From Phyllobacterium endophyticum (lineage in GTDB: Bacteria > Pseudomonadota > Alphaproteobacteria > Rhizobiales > Rhizobiaceae), in NCBI RefSeq assembly GCF_003010935.1, contig NZ_PGGN01000001.1, positions 434,001-498,000 of the forward strand: 64,000 bases of DNA, written 5' to 3'. The first letter of the stretch is position 1, and each line of letters opens with the position of its first letter. The notes under the pieces are model-generated. The model did no database searches. It had not been told where the DNA came from and saw only the letters and a list, made by a program, of their open reading frames with translations. Made by a program: the position numbers and the translations under genes. Positions 2-45,282 of this stretch are shown here, piece by piece.

Positions 2-2503
2 GCAAGTGAGCCCAGTCTAGGCATCGAAGTTCCCGATTTTTCGGCGCTAGCTTGGGATCAATTGCGCCGCGACAACAAACTGCCACCTTCTCGAGTGGCA
101 ATCGCTCATTCGGAGCGACGTGACGGTATTGGCCGCTCCGTGCCGAATGCTGTGCTGAAAGTGCCAACCGGTGGTGGCAAGACTTATGTGGCGATCAATG
201 GACTATCACGCATTTTCGGACGCTATCTCAACAGCAATACCGGCTTTGTACTTTGGATTGTACCCAATGAAGCGATCTATTCCCAAACGCTTAATCGCCT
301 GAGGGATCGACAAGACCCCTATCGGCAAATGCTTGATCGGGCCGCTGCGGGCCGTGTTCGAATCATGGAGAAGACAGACCGACTCGATTCGCGCGATGTG
401 GAGAGCCAGCTCTGCGTTATGTTGTTGATGCTGCAATCAGCGAATCGCGAAACCAAGGATACGCTGAAGATGTTTCAGGACCGGGGCGATGTATCGGGAT
501 TCACACCACCCCAAGGCGATCAAAAAGCCCATTCGGATATGAGTGCTGCGATTCCCAATCTGTCGCTCTATGACCTTGCTGACAACCCCGTGGCTTGGCC
601 ATTGATTAAGGATTCACTGGGCAATGCCTTGCGGATAATCCGCCCTGTTGTTGTGCTCGATGAAGGCCATAGGGCCGTCTCCGATCTAGCTTTTGAGACG
701 CTTTATGGGTTCAACCCATCCTTTGTGCTGGAGTTGACCGCAACGCCCCATGATGTGCAGCCGAGAGGGGGAAGGAATCCACATCCGGGCCGTTATGCCA
801 ATGTGCTTGTTGAGGTAACCGGCGTCGAACTCGACAAAGAGGGCATGATTAAGATGCCGCTGAACCTTGATACGCGTCAAAACTCTGACTGGAAAACGAC
901 ACTTGCCGCTGCAATTGAACGGTTGAATGTACTTCAACGGGAAGCTGAGAGCCTTCGCGGTCAAACCAATCGCTATATACGTCCTATAATGTTGATACAG
1001 GTGGAACGTACCGGCAAGGATCAGCGCAGCGCGGGCCTCATCCATTCTGAAGATGTGAAGGAATGGCTTTTGACTGCTGGCTTTGATGAAGCCGAAATTG
1101 CGATCAAGACAGCCGAAACAAATGATCTAAGCGCCCCTGAAAATCAGGACCTCCTATCGCCGTTCAACCGCGTGCGGGCGATTATTACTAAGCAGGCCCT
1201 ACAAGAAGGTTGGGACTGCCCATTCGCATACGTACTTTGTTCGCTGTCTGCCAATTCAAATCTGAGGGCTATGACGCAGCTTGTTGGCCGCATCCTTCGC
1301 CAACCGGGCGCACTGAAAACCGGCATTGACCCACTCGATGAATGCTATGTGATTACGCATCAGGCAGGCACCGCTGAGGTCGTGGCAAATATCAAAGAAG
1401 GCCTGGAAAAAGATGGACTGGGTGATTTGGTGATTGCAGTCCACCAAGGGGGAGACTCGGCAAACGTCAAAACAGCGCGTTTGATTAATAGGCGCGCGGA
1501 ATTTTCATCACAAGAAATATACCTGCCCAAGGTGTTAGTCATCGAGAATGGACTGACGCGAGATCTGGACTATGAAACCGACATTTTGGCAGCCATAGAC
1601 TGGCGTGGTTTCGACCCCACCTTTATTGCTGACGCGATCCCAGAAAACACGCAAGCGGCTGCACGTCAGCTACAGCGCATCAGCATTGCAGATACGCCGG
1701 AGCATTTCGCAGCAGAAACACTTTCCATTGCGCAAGAGGCTTTGCGTTTTGATCCCGCCTATGCCGTACGCATGATTTCCGACCTCGTACCCAATCCTTT
1801 CGTTGCTCGGGAAATTGTTGGCAGCTTGCTACACGTACTGAAGACCAAGGGCTTTAATGATGCCAAGATTGGGGCGATCGCTAGCCGCATTGTTGACGAA
1901 TTGCGCCGTGCGCTCGATATGGAACGCGCGGCAAAGGCTGAAGCGCTTTTTAAAGCAGCAGTGGCGACCGGCGGTGTTCAATTCAGGTTGCGGCTAGATG
2001 GAAAGAACTGGCGGCTACCCTTCAGTGTTGAAACCACAGAACCGTTGGGAGCACCGCAACTGCACAGTATTGCTGGCGGCTCACTGGCAAAGAGCCTCTT
2101 TGCACCAATTTACGAATCAGAACTCAACACTGACGAGCGCGCGGTTGCCGGATATCTCGACAACGATGACGCACTGAAATGGTGGCACCGTAATGTGGCG
2201 CGCAAGCAATACGGTTTGCAGGGTTGGCGACGGGGCAAAATTTATCCAGATTTCATTTTTGCTGTTCAGCGAAACGAGGGTGGCGACCGGATTGCCGTTC
2301 TAGAAACGAAAGGCGATCAACTCGACAATCTCGACACGGCCTACAAGCGCGATTTGCTGAATTTCCTTTCCGATAATTTTGCTTGGGATACGACCGTTCC
2401 GGCAGGCACTCTTGAGCTTCAGGACACAAATGGAGAAACCGTGGAGTGCGCTTTGGTATTGATGAGCGAATGGAGATCGAAACTGCCGGGATATTTGGCG
2501 TAA
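2..2503 (+). CDS. Type III restriction-type helicase-nuclease (Res-like), 5' end outside window
   Basis: A superfamily 2 ATPase joined to a nuclease, as in the Res subunit of type III restriction enzymes; it would move on DNA using ATP and cut it. The frame is open from base 2, so the true start lies before the window; the TTG at 62 is only an internal codon. Visible motifs are Walker A (VPTGGGKT, about 161-184), motif II as DEGH instead of DEAH/DEAD (about 659-670), motif III (LTATPH) and motif VI (GRILRQPG). The last 100 residues hold a PD-(D/E)xK-type site (YPDF, then LETKG). The Mrr-type gene follows within 20 bases on the same strand, so the two probably share a transcript. No methyltransferase is visible; one could lie upstream. 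Helicase and nuclease are seen; the exact restriction type is inferred. Confidence 0.85.
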   Translation, partial: ASEPSLGIEVPDFSALAWDQLRRDNKLPPSRVAIAHSERRDGIGRSVPNAVLKVPTGGGKTYVAINGLSRIFGRYLNSNTGFVLWIVPNEAIYSQTLNRLRDRQDPYRQMLDRAAAGRVRIMEKTDRLDSRDVESQLCVMLLMLQSANRETKDTLKMFQDRGDVSGFTPPQGDQKAHSDMSAAIPNLSLYDLADNPVAWPLIKDSLGNALRIIRPVVVLDEGHRAVSDLAFETLYGFNPSFVLELTATPHDVQPRGGRNPHPGRYANVLVEVTGVELDKEGMIKMPLNLDTRQNSDWKTTLAAAIERLNVLQREAESLRGQTNRYIRPIMLIQVERTGKDQRSAGLIHSEDVKEWLLTAGFDEAEIAIKTAETNDLSAPENQDLLSPFNRVRAIITKQALQEGWDCPFAYVLCSLSANSNLRAMTQLVGRILRQPGALKTGIDPLDECYVITHQAGTAEVVANIKEGLEKDGLGDLVIAVHQGGDSANVKTARLINRRAEFSSQEIYLPKVLVIENGLTRDLDYETDILAAIDWRGFDPTFIADAIPENTQAAARQLQRISIADTPEHFAAETLSIAQEALRFDPAYAVRMISDLVPNPFVAREIVGSLLHVLKTKGFNDAKIGAIASRIVDELRRALDMERAAKAEALFKAAVATGGVQFRLRLDGKNWRLPFSVETTEPLGAPQLHSIAGGSLAKSLFAPIYESELNTDERAVAGYLDNDDALKWWHRNVARKQYGLQGWRRGKIYPDFIFAVQRNEGGDRIAVLETKGDQLDNLDTAYKRDLLNFLSDNFAWDTTVPAGTLELQDTNGETVECALVLMSEWRSKLPGYLA

Positions 2504-2519
2504 CAATCGCGTGGATTTA

Positions 2520-3452
2520 ATGACAATCCCTGATTATCAGAGTTTAATGCTTACAGTTCTCAAGGCCGCCGCGAATAAGGCAGTGCGTGTGCCTGATTTG
2601 GAAGATTTAGCGGCAGATGAATTTCGGATGAATGCCGACGAGCGGCAACAGCTTCTTCCAAGCGGTCGTCAAAGAATGTTGGCTAACCGTCTTCATTGGG
2701 CCAAATTCTATCTCTTGAAAGCTGGCCTCTTAAGCACCCCGCAAAGAGGTCAGTTCATCGCAACCGACGCTGGCCGTTTGTTACTTGCAAGCAAACCAGC
2801 GCGGATTGACAATGAGCAGTTGAAAAAATACCCGTCATTTCAGGCTTTCATCGCCGCAAGCAAGTCTTCCTTGAGTCAAAGGGACGAAAATCTTCCTTCC
2901 TTCACGGAACAAGACTCTCATCCCCAATCTCCCGACGATCAAATAGAAACGGCATACGCTTCACTTCTTGGTGCCTTACAGGAGGAGCTATTAGAAAGAA
3001 TTCTTGCGAGTAGTCCTAGCTTTTTCGAAGGCCTAATTGTCGATTTGCTGATTGCAATGGGTTATGGAGGATCTCATCAGGATGCAGCCCGTAAACTTGG
3101 TAGAACCGGCGACGGAGGCGTTGACGGCGTTATAAACGAGGATCGATTGGGACTTGATCGGATTTATGTTCAAGCCAAGCGCTATCAAATAGGAAGTGCT
3201 ATCCATACTCCGACAGTGAATGCCTTCGTAGGTAGTTTGGAAGGCTTCAAGGCATCGAAAGGCGTGTTTGTCACTACCTCTAGGTTTTCAGAAGGCGCTA
3301 GAACATACGTAAGAAGCATCTCTAAAAGTGTTATCCTTATCGATGGAAAGCAGCTTGTTGATCTCATGATTGAACACAATGTGGGGGTGCGGGTTCACCG
3401 CACGCTGCAGTTCAAGCGTCTAGATGAAGATTTTTTTTCCGACGAAGAATAG
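2520..3452 (+). CDS. Mrr-type restriction endonuclease
   Basis: About 310 residues. The N-terminal part resembles the winged-helix DNA-binding domain of E. coli Mrr (a start like MTIPDYQ, then a long helical region). The C-terminal part is a PD-(D/E)xK nuclease fold with GVDG and the QAK catalytic motif near residue 218, followed by a strand ending in FVTTS. Mrr enzymes cut modified DNA, so the likely job is type IV restriction. ATG at 2520 is chosen over GTG at 2511 because the known family begins with MT(V/I)P; neither has a strong ribosome site. The gene is visibly richer in A and T than the chromosome after 3.9 kb, which fits horizontal transfer together with the preceding helicase gene. 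Confidence 0.85.
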   Translation: MTIPDYQSLMLTVLKAAANKAVRVPDLEDLAADEFRMNADERQQLLPSGRQRMLANRLHWAKFYLLKAGLLSTPQRGQFIATDAGRLLLASKPARIDNEQLKKYPSFQAFIAASKSSLSQRDENLPSFTEQDSHPQSPDDQIETAYASLLGALQEELLERILASSPSFFEGLIVDLLIAMGYGGSHQDAARKLGRTGDGGVDGVINEDRLGLDRIYVQAKRYQIGSAIHTPTVNAFVGSLEGFKASKGVFVTTSRFSEGARTYVRSISKSVILIDGKQLVDLMIEHNVGVRVHRTLQFKRLDEDFFSDEE

Positions 3453-26750: not shown

Positions 26751-28451
26751 TTAGTTCTTTTCGCGGCTCTTCAGAGCGGCACCCAGGATGTCCCCGAGTG
26801 ATGCACCGCTGTCGGTTGAACCGTACTGGGCAACAGCTTCCTTCTCTTCGGCGATTTCCAGCGCCTTGATCGAGACCTGCAGCTTGCGGGTCTTCTTGTC
26901 GAAGGCGATGACGCGGGCGTCAACCTTCTGACCAACCGTAAAGCGTTCCGGACGCTGTTCGTCGCGGTCGCGGGACAAGTCAGCGCGGCGAATGAAGCTG
27001 TCCAGGTCGTGATCGACCAGGCGCACTTCTAGACCGCCATCGGTAATGCCCGTAACTTCAACGGTAACAACGGCGTTCTTGCGCAGTTCACCCGAAGTTG
27101 CGGCTTCGCCGACCTTGTCGCCCGTCAACTGCTTGATGCCGAGGGAGATACGCTCTTTCTCGACGTCGACGTCAAGAACCTGCGCCTTGACGACGTCACC
27201 CTTGTTGTACTCTTCGATGACCTGCTCGCCGGGACGGTTCCAGTCGAGGTCGGAGAGGTGAACCATGCCATCCACATCGCCATCGAGACCAATGAACAGG
27301 CCGAACTCGGTCTTGTTCTTGACTTCGCCTTCGACGATCGTCCCCACTGGGAACTTGTCCGCAAAGGTTGTCCATGGATTGTCGAGGGTCTGCTTGAGGC
27401 CCAGCGAGATGCGGCGCTTGACCGGATCGACTTCGAGCACAACGACTTCAACTTCCTGCGTGGTCGAGAGCAGCTTGCCCGGATGCACGTTCTTCTTTGT
27501 CCAGGACATTTCGGAAACGTGAATAAGGCCTTCGATGCCCGGCTCGATCTCGACGAATGCACCGTAGTCGGTGATGTTCGTAACGGTACCGGTGATCTTT
27601 TTGCCGATTGGGTATTTCGCACCGATACCATCCCAAGGATCGCTCTCGAGCTGCTTCATGCCGAGAGAAATACGATGGGTTTCCTGGTTGATACGAATGA
27701 TCTGGACCTTGACAGTCTGGCCAATGGACAGGATTTCCGAAGGATGGTTGACGCGGCGCCAAGCCATGTCGGTCACATGCAGAAGACCATCGATGCCGCC
27801 GAGATCAACGAACGCACCGTAATCGGTGATGTTCTTGACAACGCCTTCAACGACCTGACCCTCTTCGAGGTTCTGGACGATTTCGGAGCGCTGTTCCGCA
27901 CGGCTCTCTTCAAGAACGGTACGGCGCGAGACAACGATGTTGCCGCGACGCTTGTCCATCTTGAGGATTTCAAAGGGCTGCGGATTGTGCATCAACGGGG
28001 TAACGTCGCGGATCGGACGGATGTCGACCTGCGAGCGCGGCAGGAAGGCTACGGCGCCGTCGAGGTCGACAGTGAAACCACCCTTGACCTGATTGAAGAT
28101 CACACCATCGACGCGTTCGCCGCGGTTGAACTTCTCTTCGAGACGGACCCAGCTTTCTTCGCGACGTGCTTTTTCGCGCGACAGAACTGCTTCGCCGAGG
28201 GCATTTTCGATGCGCTCGACATAAACTTCAACGATATCGCCCGGCTTGAGCGACCCGTCCTTGGCTTTCGCGCCGAATTCCTTCAGCGGAACACGACCTT
28301 CGACCTTGAGGCCGGCGTCGATGATCGCCATGTCTTTTTCGATGGCGACGATACGGCCTTTTACTACGTAACCTTCAGCAAGGTCATTGGTGGCAAAGGA
28401 CTCGGCGAGAAGAGCTTCGAAATCTTCACGCGTTGGATTGGCTTCAGACAT
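26751..28451 (-). CDS. rpsA: 30S ribosomal protein S1
   Basis: 566 residues with six S1 (OB-fold) RNA-binding repeats; repeats three to six show the ITDYGAFV / KTEFGLF type of motif and ISLGMKQ / ISLGLKQ ends. S1 binds mRNA at the 30S subunit during initiation. The start at 28451 (MSEANPTRED) has AGGAG eight bases upstream. A longer reading with 32 more residues is rejected. It lies 137 bases after cmk on the same strand. Confidence 0.97.
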   Translation of the reverse strand: MSEANPTREDFEALLAESFATNDLAEGYVVKGRIVAIEKDMAIIDAGLKVEGRVPLKEFGAKAKDGSLKPGDIVEVYVERIENALGEAVLSREKARREESWVRLEEKFNRGERVDGVIFNQVKGGFTVDLDGAVAFLPRSQVDIRPIRDVTPLMHNPQPFEILKMDKRRGNIVVSRRTVLEESRAEQRSEIVQNLEEGQVVEGVVKNITDYGAFVDLGGIDGLLHVTDMAWRRVNHPSEILSIGQTVKVQIIRINQETHRISLGMKQLESDPWDGIGAKYPIGKKITGTVTNITDYGAFVEIEPGIEGLIHVSEMSWTKKNVHPGKLLSTTQEVEVVVLEVDPVKRRISLGLKQTLDNPWTTFADKFPVGTIVEGEVKNKTEFGLFIGLDGDVDGMVHLSDLDWNRPGEQVIEEYNKGDVVKAQVLDVDVEKERISLGIKQLTGDKVGEAATSGELRKNAVVTVEVTGITDGGLEVRLVDHDLDSFIRRADLSRDRDEQRPERFTVGQKVDARVIAFDKKTRKLQVSIKALEIAEEKEAVAQYGSTDSGASLGDILGAALKSREKN

Positions 28452-28588
28452 ACATACTCCTGGGTGTCCGGAAAATTCATCGGACACAGCACCGGTGGTT
28501 CGTGTTACGGATCGTCTGCGTGCCAACCCGCCCCCTTTAGGGAGCAATCCGGTGCGAGGGCTGACTGCAAACGTATTTTGCGGCTAGT

Positions 28589-29563
28589 CTAATGCTTGTT
28601 CTTTGCGAGGGCCTGATCGATCAGGGTTTTGGCGCTAAGAAACGCGGTCTCTATATCCATTTCCGTCGTATCTAGCAAGTGCGCGTCGGCCGCAGGCTTC
28701 AATGGCGAATCGGTGCGCCCCATATCACGGGCGTCGCGCCGGGTAAGATCCTCCAGAATCTCGTCATATTTGGCACTGCCGCCTCCCGATTTGATCTCTG
28801 CATAGCGGCGCTGCGCGCGCGCTTCCGGCGATGCGGTGATGTAGAGTTTCACCGGCGCGTCGGGACAAACCACCGTACCGATGTCGCGTCCATCCAATAC
28901 GGCGCCTGGCGGGCGCTCGGCGAAGCTGTGCTGCATGGCAACCAGCGCGCGGCGCACAGCCGGCATTACCGCCACCTTTGATGCTGCCTCGCCTACGTCG
29001 TGGGCGGACAGCACCGAACGATCGAGTTTCGTCAGGTCGATTGTCCTCGCAGCTTTTTCCGCCAGAAATTCATCGTCGAGTGGCATGTTCTGGTCCATGA
29101 GGGCCTTGGCTACAGCCCGGTAGGTCAGGCCCGTATCGAGATGATGAAATCCATATGCCTCAGCGATTCGCCGCGCGAGCGTGCCTTTGCCCGATGCCGC
29201 CGGACCGTCGATGGCAATGGTAAAGTGCGTTTGAGGCGTCGGCCGGTCTTTTTCATCCCTGCCGAAGGCCCACTGGCCGAGAGCGAAGATAAGATAGGCG
29301 GCCGCCAGAACCAGCGTGATGAGCGGTGTGATGCCGAAGGTGATTATAACGTAACTGCCCACTGTCGTTATTGCTTGCTCCAGCCATTCTGGCAAAGACG
29401 CAGCAAAATCCTGCAGCAGCGTGTCAACAGCAAGGATCAGTACGAATTGGCAAATGAACAGCCAGAACAGCAGGGCAAACAGACCAAAGCGAACGCGTAA
29501 GCCAAAGCGTTCAATGGCATAGGGAATGGCAACGACAGCAAATGACGCCAGCAGACGGAACAT
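28589..29563 (-). CDS. cmk: Cytidylate kinase with an N-terminal membrane domain
   Basis: 324 residues, about 105 more than usual. Residues from about 108 on are a normal (d)CMP kinase: P-loop [40 protein letters not shown], and [13 protein letters not shown]. It makes CDP and dCDP from CMP and dCMP. The first 105 residues form about three hydrophobic segments ([61 protein letters not shown]) in the same frame. No ATG, GTG or TTG occurs near the kinase boundary, so an independent kinase start is not evident. The ATG at 29563 overlaps the stop codon of the preceding small gene (TAATG), suggesting coupled translation. The kinase call is firm; the fusion is read from the sequence and not proven at protein level. 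Confidence 0.85.
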
Positions 29564-29868
29564 TAATGTTTGGTCCTCTTGCCTATGACAAAACCTATGC
29601 CGTAACCGGCCATCGATCCAATTGCGGGCGGCAGGAGAAGAAATTGCAACGGCGCCCGCTCGCCGATGCTTGCATTCCACGCATAGAGGAAGATGAGAAG
29701 CAAAGGAAGAACGACGCAAAAAATCGATCTGCTGACCCCCGGCCAAGGCTTTTCAGCCTCGCTGGCAACAGTCCCGGCACAGGCACTTCTCGCCGCCCAG
29801 ACCACGAAGGGAACGCTAGACATGACATAGAGGAGATAGACGGTAAGACGCGACATGAGCTCGGTCAT
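29563..29868 (-). CDS. Small membrane protein of unknown function between aroA and cmk
   Basis: 101 residues. There is a membrane segment at about 8-28 ([20 protein letters not shown]), a charged loop, and two more at about 46-65 and 75-95 ([15 protein letters not shown] and [18 protein letters not shown]). A GGGAAG ribosome site lies seven bases before the ATG at 29868. The gene starts 18 bases after aroA and its stop codon overlaps the cmk start. I do not recognise a family. Its coupling to the membrane extension of cmk suggests the two hydrophobic pieces may work together, but this is inference. Confidence 0.65.
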
Positions 29869-29886: not shown

Positions 29887-31311
<1,425 letters not shown>

Positions 31312-31486
31312 TCATGGTCATCTTGCAAATTCAATGACTGGCACAAGCATTTTTTCGCTTTGACAAATGCGCCGAATTGCGTTTATGGGACCGCAAATCC
31401 ATTTTGATGAGCGCTGACATAAGCGTTGGGTCATGACAGGCCCCAATGTAGTCGAATGCAAGCGCAGCCAGAAGACGAGGCAAAAC

Positions 31487-31870
31487 GTGGCAAATCCAAA
31501 ACTTGGCACCAAGCGAATTGACCCGGAGACCGGGCAGAAATTCTACGATCTCAATCGGGATCCGATCGTTTCGCCCTATACGGGAAAGACATATCCGCTC
31601 AGCTACTTTGATTCGACTGCAGCGTCAGCGCGCGAGGAAGAAGAAGAGGTCGAGACGGAAGAGCTCGATGTTGCTCTGGAGAAGCCGGAATTCGTGGCGC
31701 TCGAAGAGGCTGACGCCGAAGGCGATGATGTTCCGGATATCGGCGACGACGATGTGGAGGTCGAAGACGCCGACGATGACGACACCTTCCTCGCCACTGA
31801 CGAGGAAGATGAAGATGACGACGTCACCGATATCCTTGGCGGCGGTATCGGTGACGACGACGAGAATTGA
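31487..31870 (+). CDS. TIGR02300 family protein with very acidic tail
   Basis: 127 residues from GTG at 31487, with AGACGAGG a few bases upstream. The first 40 residues (KLGTKRIDPETGQKFYDLN, then PYTGKTYPLSYF) are the conserved TIGR02300 head. This copy lacks the Cys often found near the TGxKFYD motif: Asp is found where many relatives have CP. The remaining 85 residues are mostly Asp and Glu and probably disordered. The function is unknown. Linkage with aroA-cmk-rpsA and tRNA-Ala is standard in Hyphomicrobiales. Confidence 0.85.
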   Translation: MANPKLGTKRIDPETGQKFYDLNRDPIVSPYTGKTYPLSYFDSTAASAREEEEEVETEELDVALEKPEFVALEEADAEGDDVPDIGDDDVEVEDADDDDTFLATDEEDEDDDVTDILGGGIGDDDEN

Positions 31871-32030: not shown

Positions 32031-32106
<76 letters not shown>

Positions 32107-45208: not shown

Positions 45209-45282
45209 TGGCTGGGGAACCTGGATTCGAACCAGGACTAACGGAGTCAGAGTCCGTGGGTCTACCGTTAACCTATTCCCCA
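45209..45282 (-). tRNA. tRNA-Gln (anticodon CTG)
   Basis: 74 bases on the minus strand, ending in GCCA. Acceptor TGGGGAA pairs with TTCCCCA; the anticodon stem ACGGA/TCCGT encloses loop CTCTGAC with anticodon CTG; the T-arm is CCTGG-TTCGAAT-CCAGG. It lies after the RND operon and reads toward it. Confidence 0.96.

Follow-up and report, generated by a model that had tools for sequence, protein, structure and literature searches.

A lineage-specific in-frame fusion of cytidylate kinase to a predicted membrane domain in Phyllobacterium

In Phyllobacterium endophyticum the only cytidylate kinase gene that could be detected is joined in frame to an upstream membrane domain, and we consider it likely that this lineage-specific fusion tethers the sole detected CMP kinase to the inner membrane as one polypeptide, with the kinase on the cytoplasmic face. 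According to its list of open reading frames, the window analysed here (the whole stretch of 64,000 nucleotides, G000:C4:434001-498000) carries on its minus strand the gene order aroA, a gene for a 101-residue membrane protein, the fused gene and rpsA. From its sequence we take the ORF at 29887..31302 (minus; the true start may be further in) to be aroA, encoding EPSP synthase, presumably also the product of the gene named aroF in the gene-order paper cited below. The small membrane protein gene (29868..29563, minus; 101 aa) begins 18 nt past the aroA stop, and its own stop codon overlaps the ATG of the fused gene (TAATG). The fused gene (29563..28589, minus) runs from the ATG at 29563..29561 to the stop at 28589 and encodes 324 residues: a membrane domain (residues 1-101; 29261..29563, minus) with three predicted helices and a 12-residue stretch, homologous to stand-alone small membrane proteins elsewhere; a variable charged linker (residues 102-113; 29225..29260, minus); and a (d)CMP kinase domain (residues 114-324 and the stop codon; 28589..29224, minus). 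The downstream ORF at 26751..28547 (minus), whose true start is probably inside the frame, is presumably rpsA (ribosomal protein S1), judging by its sequence and the gene order. A sequence-only reading of the window had described the in-frame fusion, with about 105 residues carrying three hydrophobic segments ahead of the kinase, its coupling to the 101-residue gene and the lack of an ATG, GTG or TTG near the kinase boundary, and these descriptions held on closer analysis. A gene-order paper describes the linkage group aroF > cmk > rpsA as conserved quite uniformly among alphaproteobacteria (PMC1173090); by that description, the membrane genes inserted at this place are a departure.

Elsewhere in the window, a gene for a very acidic protein (31433-31870, plus) is divergent from aroA. 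Genes of the same kind are found near cmk at two other loci (L021 and L026) and near aroA at a third (L131), so that this gene belongs to the wider neighbourhood. Rfam models reached their gathering score at just two places in the window, a tRNA-Ala gene (GGC; 32031-32106, plus), beyond aroA and the acidic-protein gene, and a tRNA-Gln gene (CTG; 45209-45282, minus).

The position of start codons bears directly on whether the long polypeptide is the product. The window sequence offers no in-frame ATG, GTG or TTG closer than 50 codons before the 11-residue P-loop motif of the kinase, the only canonical in-frame codons inside the extension being a TTG at codon 57 and a GTG at codon 68. For comparison, 73 unfused cmk loci were given and 72 of them scanned, L110 being without the motif; a canonical start was located within 20 codons of the motif in 71 of the 72, and at 24 codons in the remaining one. 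The ATG of the fusion is preceded, within the 3' end of the small gene, by a Shine-Dalgarno-like AGAGGA (29574..29579, minus; duplex -5.8 kcal/mol). Across 20 genomes of the genus, the anti-Shine-Dalgarno pairing before this ATG averaged -6.5 kcal/mol, compared with -2.0 for the background, and in 19 of them the site was no weaker than the 10th percentile of the background energies. Since no stop codon separates the two parts in any of these genomes (20/20), translation from the upstream ATG must yield the fusion. A candidate kinase-only product from a standard start was rejected because no such start is common to the genus genomes. A broader alternative is that the cell produces a soluble Cmk as well, or even chiefly, from a non-standard linker codon or by cleavage, and that the long form is minor. 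A canonical start does lie within 20 codons of the motif in seven of the 20 fused genomes (at differing positions, one of them ATG), and in eight the pairing of the best canonical or near-cognate linker codon, a best-of-several figure, reaches the 10th percentile of the background. We nevertheless regard this alternative as improbable: a canonical linker start common to all 20 is absent and the window sequence has none, ribosomes coming from the well-marked upstream ATG must run into the kinase, and a start at the Ile codons that all 20 genomes share at the first residue of the motif would remove part of the kinase's first strand.

Comparison of cmk loci across genomes found both the extension and the small gene in every genome grouped as Phyllobacterium. 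The match to the fused protein starts at residue 1 and extends as far as residue 322, 323 or 324, with no internal stop, in all 20 genus genomes (that of P. endophyticum included), 16 of which are named separate records, and a search of named records supplied a 21st genome with the fusion (L044). The named full-length matches (n = 17) all belong to Phyllobacterium, save two labelled Rhizobiales bacterium. A sequencing error joining two frames, which the sequence-only reading had offered as a possible refutation, is ruled out by this recurrence: we found no evidence in support of an assembly or sequencing error, the identical join is present in 20/20 genomes and again in the 21st, and the chance that an artefact made it is practically nil. 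The small membrane gene likewise precedes the fusion in 20/20 genomes, with first-read lengths of 101 to 125 aa. The stop codon of this gene overlaps the fusion ATG in 12, abuts it in two, and lies 6 nt before it in one and 64 to 67 nt before it in five. No relative of this small gene was found outside the genus; a single search of 297 genomes of the order, with up to 15 first-look candidates scored per genome, returned the P. endophyticum genome only. Within the fused gene, linker length varies among the genus genomes by whole codons only. The membrane part had a median pairwise dN/dS ratio (Nei-Gojobori) of 0.10, compared with 0.44 in the linker and 0.064 in the kinase (164, 127 and 183 pairs with usable dS, respectively, out of 190), values that are rough as dS is near saturation. 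As judged from these codon comparisons, the extension is evidently under purifying selection.

The extension is predicted to be an integral membrane domain with two strong hydrophobic segments and a weak one. Hydropathy peaks of the fused protein lie at residues 4-22, 28-46 and 77-95, and three segments, of which the first is weak, are shared by the window protein, five other genus proteins and three stand-alone proteins. In all six genus proteins checked, segment 1 is followed by a loop of net positive charge and segment 2 by an acidic one, a charge pattern that, by the positive-inside rule, places the kinase in the cytoplasm. We infer a cytoplasmic kinase either way, whether segment 1 spans the membrane (three helices, N terminus outside) or does not (a hairpin, N terminus inside). 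An AlphaFold2 run on an alignment of 32 sequences modelled helices at residues 2-21, 28-54 and 59-105. As segment 1 is weakly hydrophobic and the third helix of the model spans 47 residues, the helix number is unsure. Confidence in the model was only about 70-80 (pLDDT) in the membrane part, below 50 at linker residues 104-110 and mostly above 85 in the kinase (mean 83); the pTM of 0.62 indicates that the membrane part and the kinase are poorly fixed relative to each other. Taken with the charge pattern, the hydrophobic segments make the membrane tether proposed in the sequence-only reading the natural interpretation of the extension.

The kinase domain appears intact, with the Cmk fold kept in the model, and is predicted to be a complete (d)CMP kinase. 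Pfam Cytidylate_kin (PF02224) matched residues 116-305 with 188 bits (cut-off 26) and TIGR00017, the (d)CMP kinase model, matched residues 114-305 with 173.7 bits (cut-off 135.55). The best solved relative, by sequence search as well as by fold (E 2.1e-16 for the latter), is the E. coli CMP kinase, and a Foldseek search with the AlphaFold model returned 2cmk, 1kdo and 1cke as best matches (E about 1e-16). In its own genome the fused protein was the one match both of a protein search, in which all 10 candidates were scored, and of PF02224, for which 7 of 98 first-look candidates were scored. With no second cmk found, the anchored enzyme must supply CDP and dCDP from CMP and dCMP, and this sole detected copy must serve RNA, DNA and CTP supply.

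The fusion has a restricted distribution. In a kinase-domain tree of 46 rows, the 18 fused rows fall on one branch (support 100/96) with a single label change, a topology that fits one origin of the fusion. The nearest other rows (support 92/84, not starred) are all unfused, namely Paramesorhizobium deserti, Mesorhizobium sp. RMAD-H1, P. leguminum, P. salinisoli and P. phragmitis. Three species named Phyllobacterium (leguminum, salinisoli and phragmitis) are thus without the fusion, and as all 20 genomes grouped as the genus are fused, these three evidently lie outside that group. From the aroA stop to the kinase motif there are 23 nt in P. leguminum and 26 nt in P. salinisoli; in P. phragmitis there are 215 nt without a membrane gene. 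The membrane profile gave no match in these five unfused genomes nor in a sixth (that of L053), and matched the positive control (L047). In Paramesorhizobium deserti and Mesorhizobium sp. RMAD-H1 another gene, of the FMN_bind_2 kind, is located between aroA and cmk; retention of the membrane gene at this place in Paramesorhizobium was considered and rejected, the gap gene being closely like the FMN_bind_2 gene of genome G105, which is discussed below. Found fused only in the genus and absent from its closest relatives examined, the extension does not answer a general need of the aroA-cmk-rpsA block, and any benefit should be lineage-specific or slight, the nearest relatives being unfused and without a match to the family.

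More generally, the contents of the gap between aroA and cmk differ by lineage: an FMN_bind_2-type gene in Paramesorhizobium (L049 and L050, before position 3010), the same type of gene after the membrane gene in G105 (L131 3832-4497), frames upstream of cmk that we take to be SDR-like in L062 and DsbA-like in L027, and membrane genes in Phyllobacterium. The P. phragmitis gap (L052) encodes GEMSGRTEGG in one frame and, to our eye, reads like an interspersed rhizobial palindromic repeat. The gap looks like a tolerated insertion place within an otherwise stable block.

Outside the genus, the extension has few relatives. When 297 genomes of the family were searched with one sequence as query, 155 gave matches at a loose limit of E 1, among which only G105 was strong outside the genus (E 1.8e-11). 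The next, G186 (E 3.4e-4), lies inside a long frame that we take to be transporter-like and was set aside as a chance match, and the remaining matches were taken as chance too. Profile searches with the extension, in which up to 12 candidates per genome were scored so that stand-alone relatives may be undercounted, matched the P. endophyticum genome, G532 and G533 among 397 genomes of the order, and 10 of 394 genomes of the family, made up of eight of the genus (P. endophyticum included), G105 and G533. The G105 homologue is a free-standing protein of 117 residues, 32% identical to the window domain over 97 residues (BLASTP, E 2e-14 for the pair), and its gene starts 2 nt past the aroA stop; it is followed by the FMN_bind_2 gene, further ORFs and, about 3.3 kb away, an unfused cmk. 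The homologues of G533 (109 aa) and G532 (110 aa) also stand alone, the first near a gene that is presumably alr. In G532 the gene (L134 1498-1830) adjoins that of a terminase large subunit (1847-3208; Terminase_6N/6C), a neighbour that would be in keeping with dissemination by a phage or gene transfer agent. Plasmid records contained no match to the extension, and none of the 63 stretches of viral contigs that fit a pattern encodes a relative. A named family could not be convincingly assigned from Pfam, NCBIfam or PHROGs: the best Pfam match was EII-Sor (E 0.0061, in 8 of 16 members, below its cut-off for the window row), the G105 protein also matched DUF6338 below cut-off (E 0.011), and PHROGs gave nothing for the window domain and E-values of 0.016 and 0.03 for two stand-alone relatives. 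By these comparisons, the extension is a domain of a rare family of small membrane proteins without a convincing Pfam or PHROGs name. As the G105 kinase falls elsewhere in the tree than the fused branch, the membrane gene may either have been gained by transfer or have been present anciently, with losses since.

We propose that, in an ancestor of the genus, a small free-standing membrane-protein gene located after aroA ran into cmk in frame. The resulting N-terminal domain, either three helices or a two-helix hairpin with a weak first helix, would insert into the inner membrane, and the flexible linker would hold the complete (d)CMP kinase at the cytoplasmic face, perhaps with the small upstream membrane protein as a partner. 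The sequence-only reading had suggested that such a tether places CDP supply near the synthesis of CDP-diacylglycerol, a purpose that is unsupported as stated: CDP-diacylglycerol synthase works on CTP, for which nucleoside diphosphate kinase has to convert CDP beforehand, so that the product of Cmk is one step short. CMP recovery therefore fits better than CDP supply. CDP-alcohol phosphotransferases release CMP at the membrane and the transfer of Kdo from CMP-Kdo releases it as well, and the anchored kinase could re-phosphorylate CMP where these reactions set it free. Local recovery of CMP is the purpose of the tether that we prefer; it draws on general biochemistry, is more weakly inferred than the tether itself, and is put forward tentatively, as less likely than not. 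CDP-alcohol phosphotransferases are nothing special to the genus, PF01066 giving three hits in the P. endophyticum genome and hits in 14 of 14 control genomes too.

About as likely as local CMP recovery, and possible though not favoured, is the explanation that the membrane domain is the useful part, with a task of its own, perhaps shared with the small upstream protein, and that the fusion fixes co-expression while the placement of the kinase is a tolerated by-product. Its homologues exist without an attached cmk, fused and stand-alone forms alike retain the pattern FG.FA..F.L...Q, which is more than a plain anchor seems to need, and a second conserved membrane gene stands ahead of the fusion in 20/20 genomes; against this, very few genomes of the order carry the family and the six unfused relatives tested gave no match to it, so that any such task is dispensable elsewhere. 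A more ambitious version of the tether, which we hold to be rather doubtful, is that the only CMP/dCMP kinase of the genus is an integral membrane enzyme in complex with the genus-specific small protein, recycling CMP at sites of phospholipid and lipopolysaccharide synthesis, and that the family marks a Rosetta-stone link to pyrimidine nucleotide supply; if true, it would newly connect an orphan membrane protein with that supply. A conserved Cmk that is predicted to be anchored and is the only copy detected offers a natural test of whether membrane placement alters lipid or nucleotide metabolism, and the fusion partner gives a first functional handle on an unnamed small membrane-protein family.

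Other Cmk fusions were sought in a survey of Cmk frames over 398 genomes of the phylum, from which the best-scoring matches were listed. Among the matches listed there were at least 19 open frames of 290 residues or more; 17 were examined, two near 700 residues (G1087 and G992) being left out. Five of these 17 read as AroA-Cmk and 12 have a standard start no more than 15 codons from the motif, and hydropathy above 1.6 occurred only within the AroA half of two of the five AroA-Cmk frames. No other membrane-fused Cmk was found among the 17 long frames examined, and upstream hydropathy above 1.6 was found at none of the 72 unfused loci. Bacterial nucleoside monophosphate kinases are, to our knowledge, known as soluble enzymes. 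Among titles and abstracts of the open-licence literature we found none on a membrane-fused Cmk, and no paper there joined Phyllobacterium and cytidylate kinase.

Compared with E. coli Cmk (PDB 1cke, 2cmk; TIGR00017/PF02224), the Phyllobacterium enzyme has the same fold and the same aroA-cmk-rpsA gene neighbourhood but carries about 113 extra N-terminal residues that include the membrane domain, and a canonical start is absent from the kinase boundary in the window sequence. (d)CMP kinases are typically, though not by strict definition, soluble and about 220 residues long, whereas here 324 residues with a hydrophobic N-terminal domain are encoded. The stand-alone proteins of G105, G533 and G532 share with the extension a length of about 110 residues, the three hydrophobic segments and the conserved pattern, and differ from it in being fused to nothing; the G105 gene also shares the place of the fusion directly after aroA, whereas the G533 and G532 copies lie in other surroundings. 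A soluble Cmk is likewise fused in frame to another protein in AroA-Cmk (NF008816, PRK11860), PanC-Cmk (NF010004) and Cmk-Der (NF007071), and AroA-Cmk, like the Phyllobacterium fusion, joins neighbours of the block. Scores against the models of these soluble fusions were far under their cut-offs and covered the kinase only; for NF008816 the score was 190.7 bits against a cut-off of 943, on the kinase half, and with aroA a separate ORF the window gene is not an AroA-Cmk fusion. Unlike the soluble Cmk fusions, the Phyllobacterium enzyme has as its partner an uncharacterised membrane protein.
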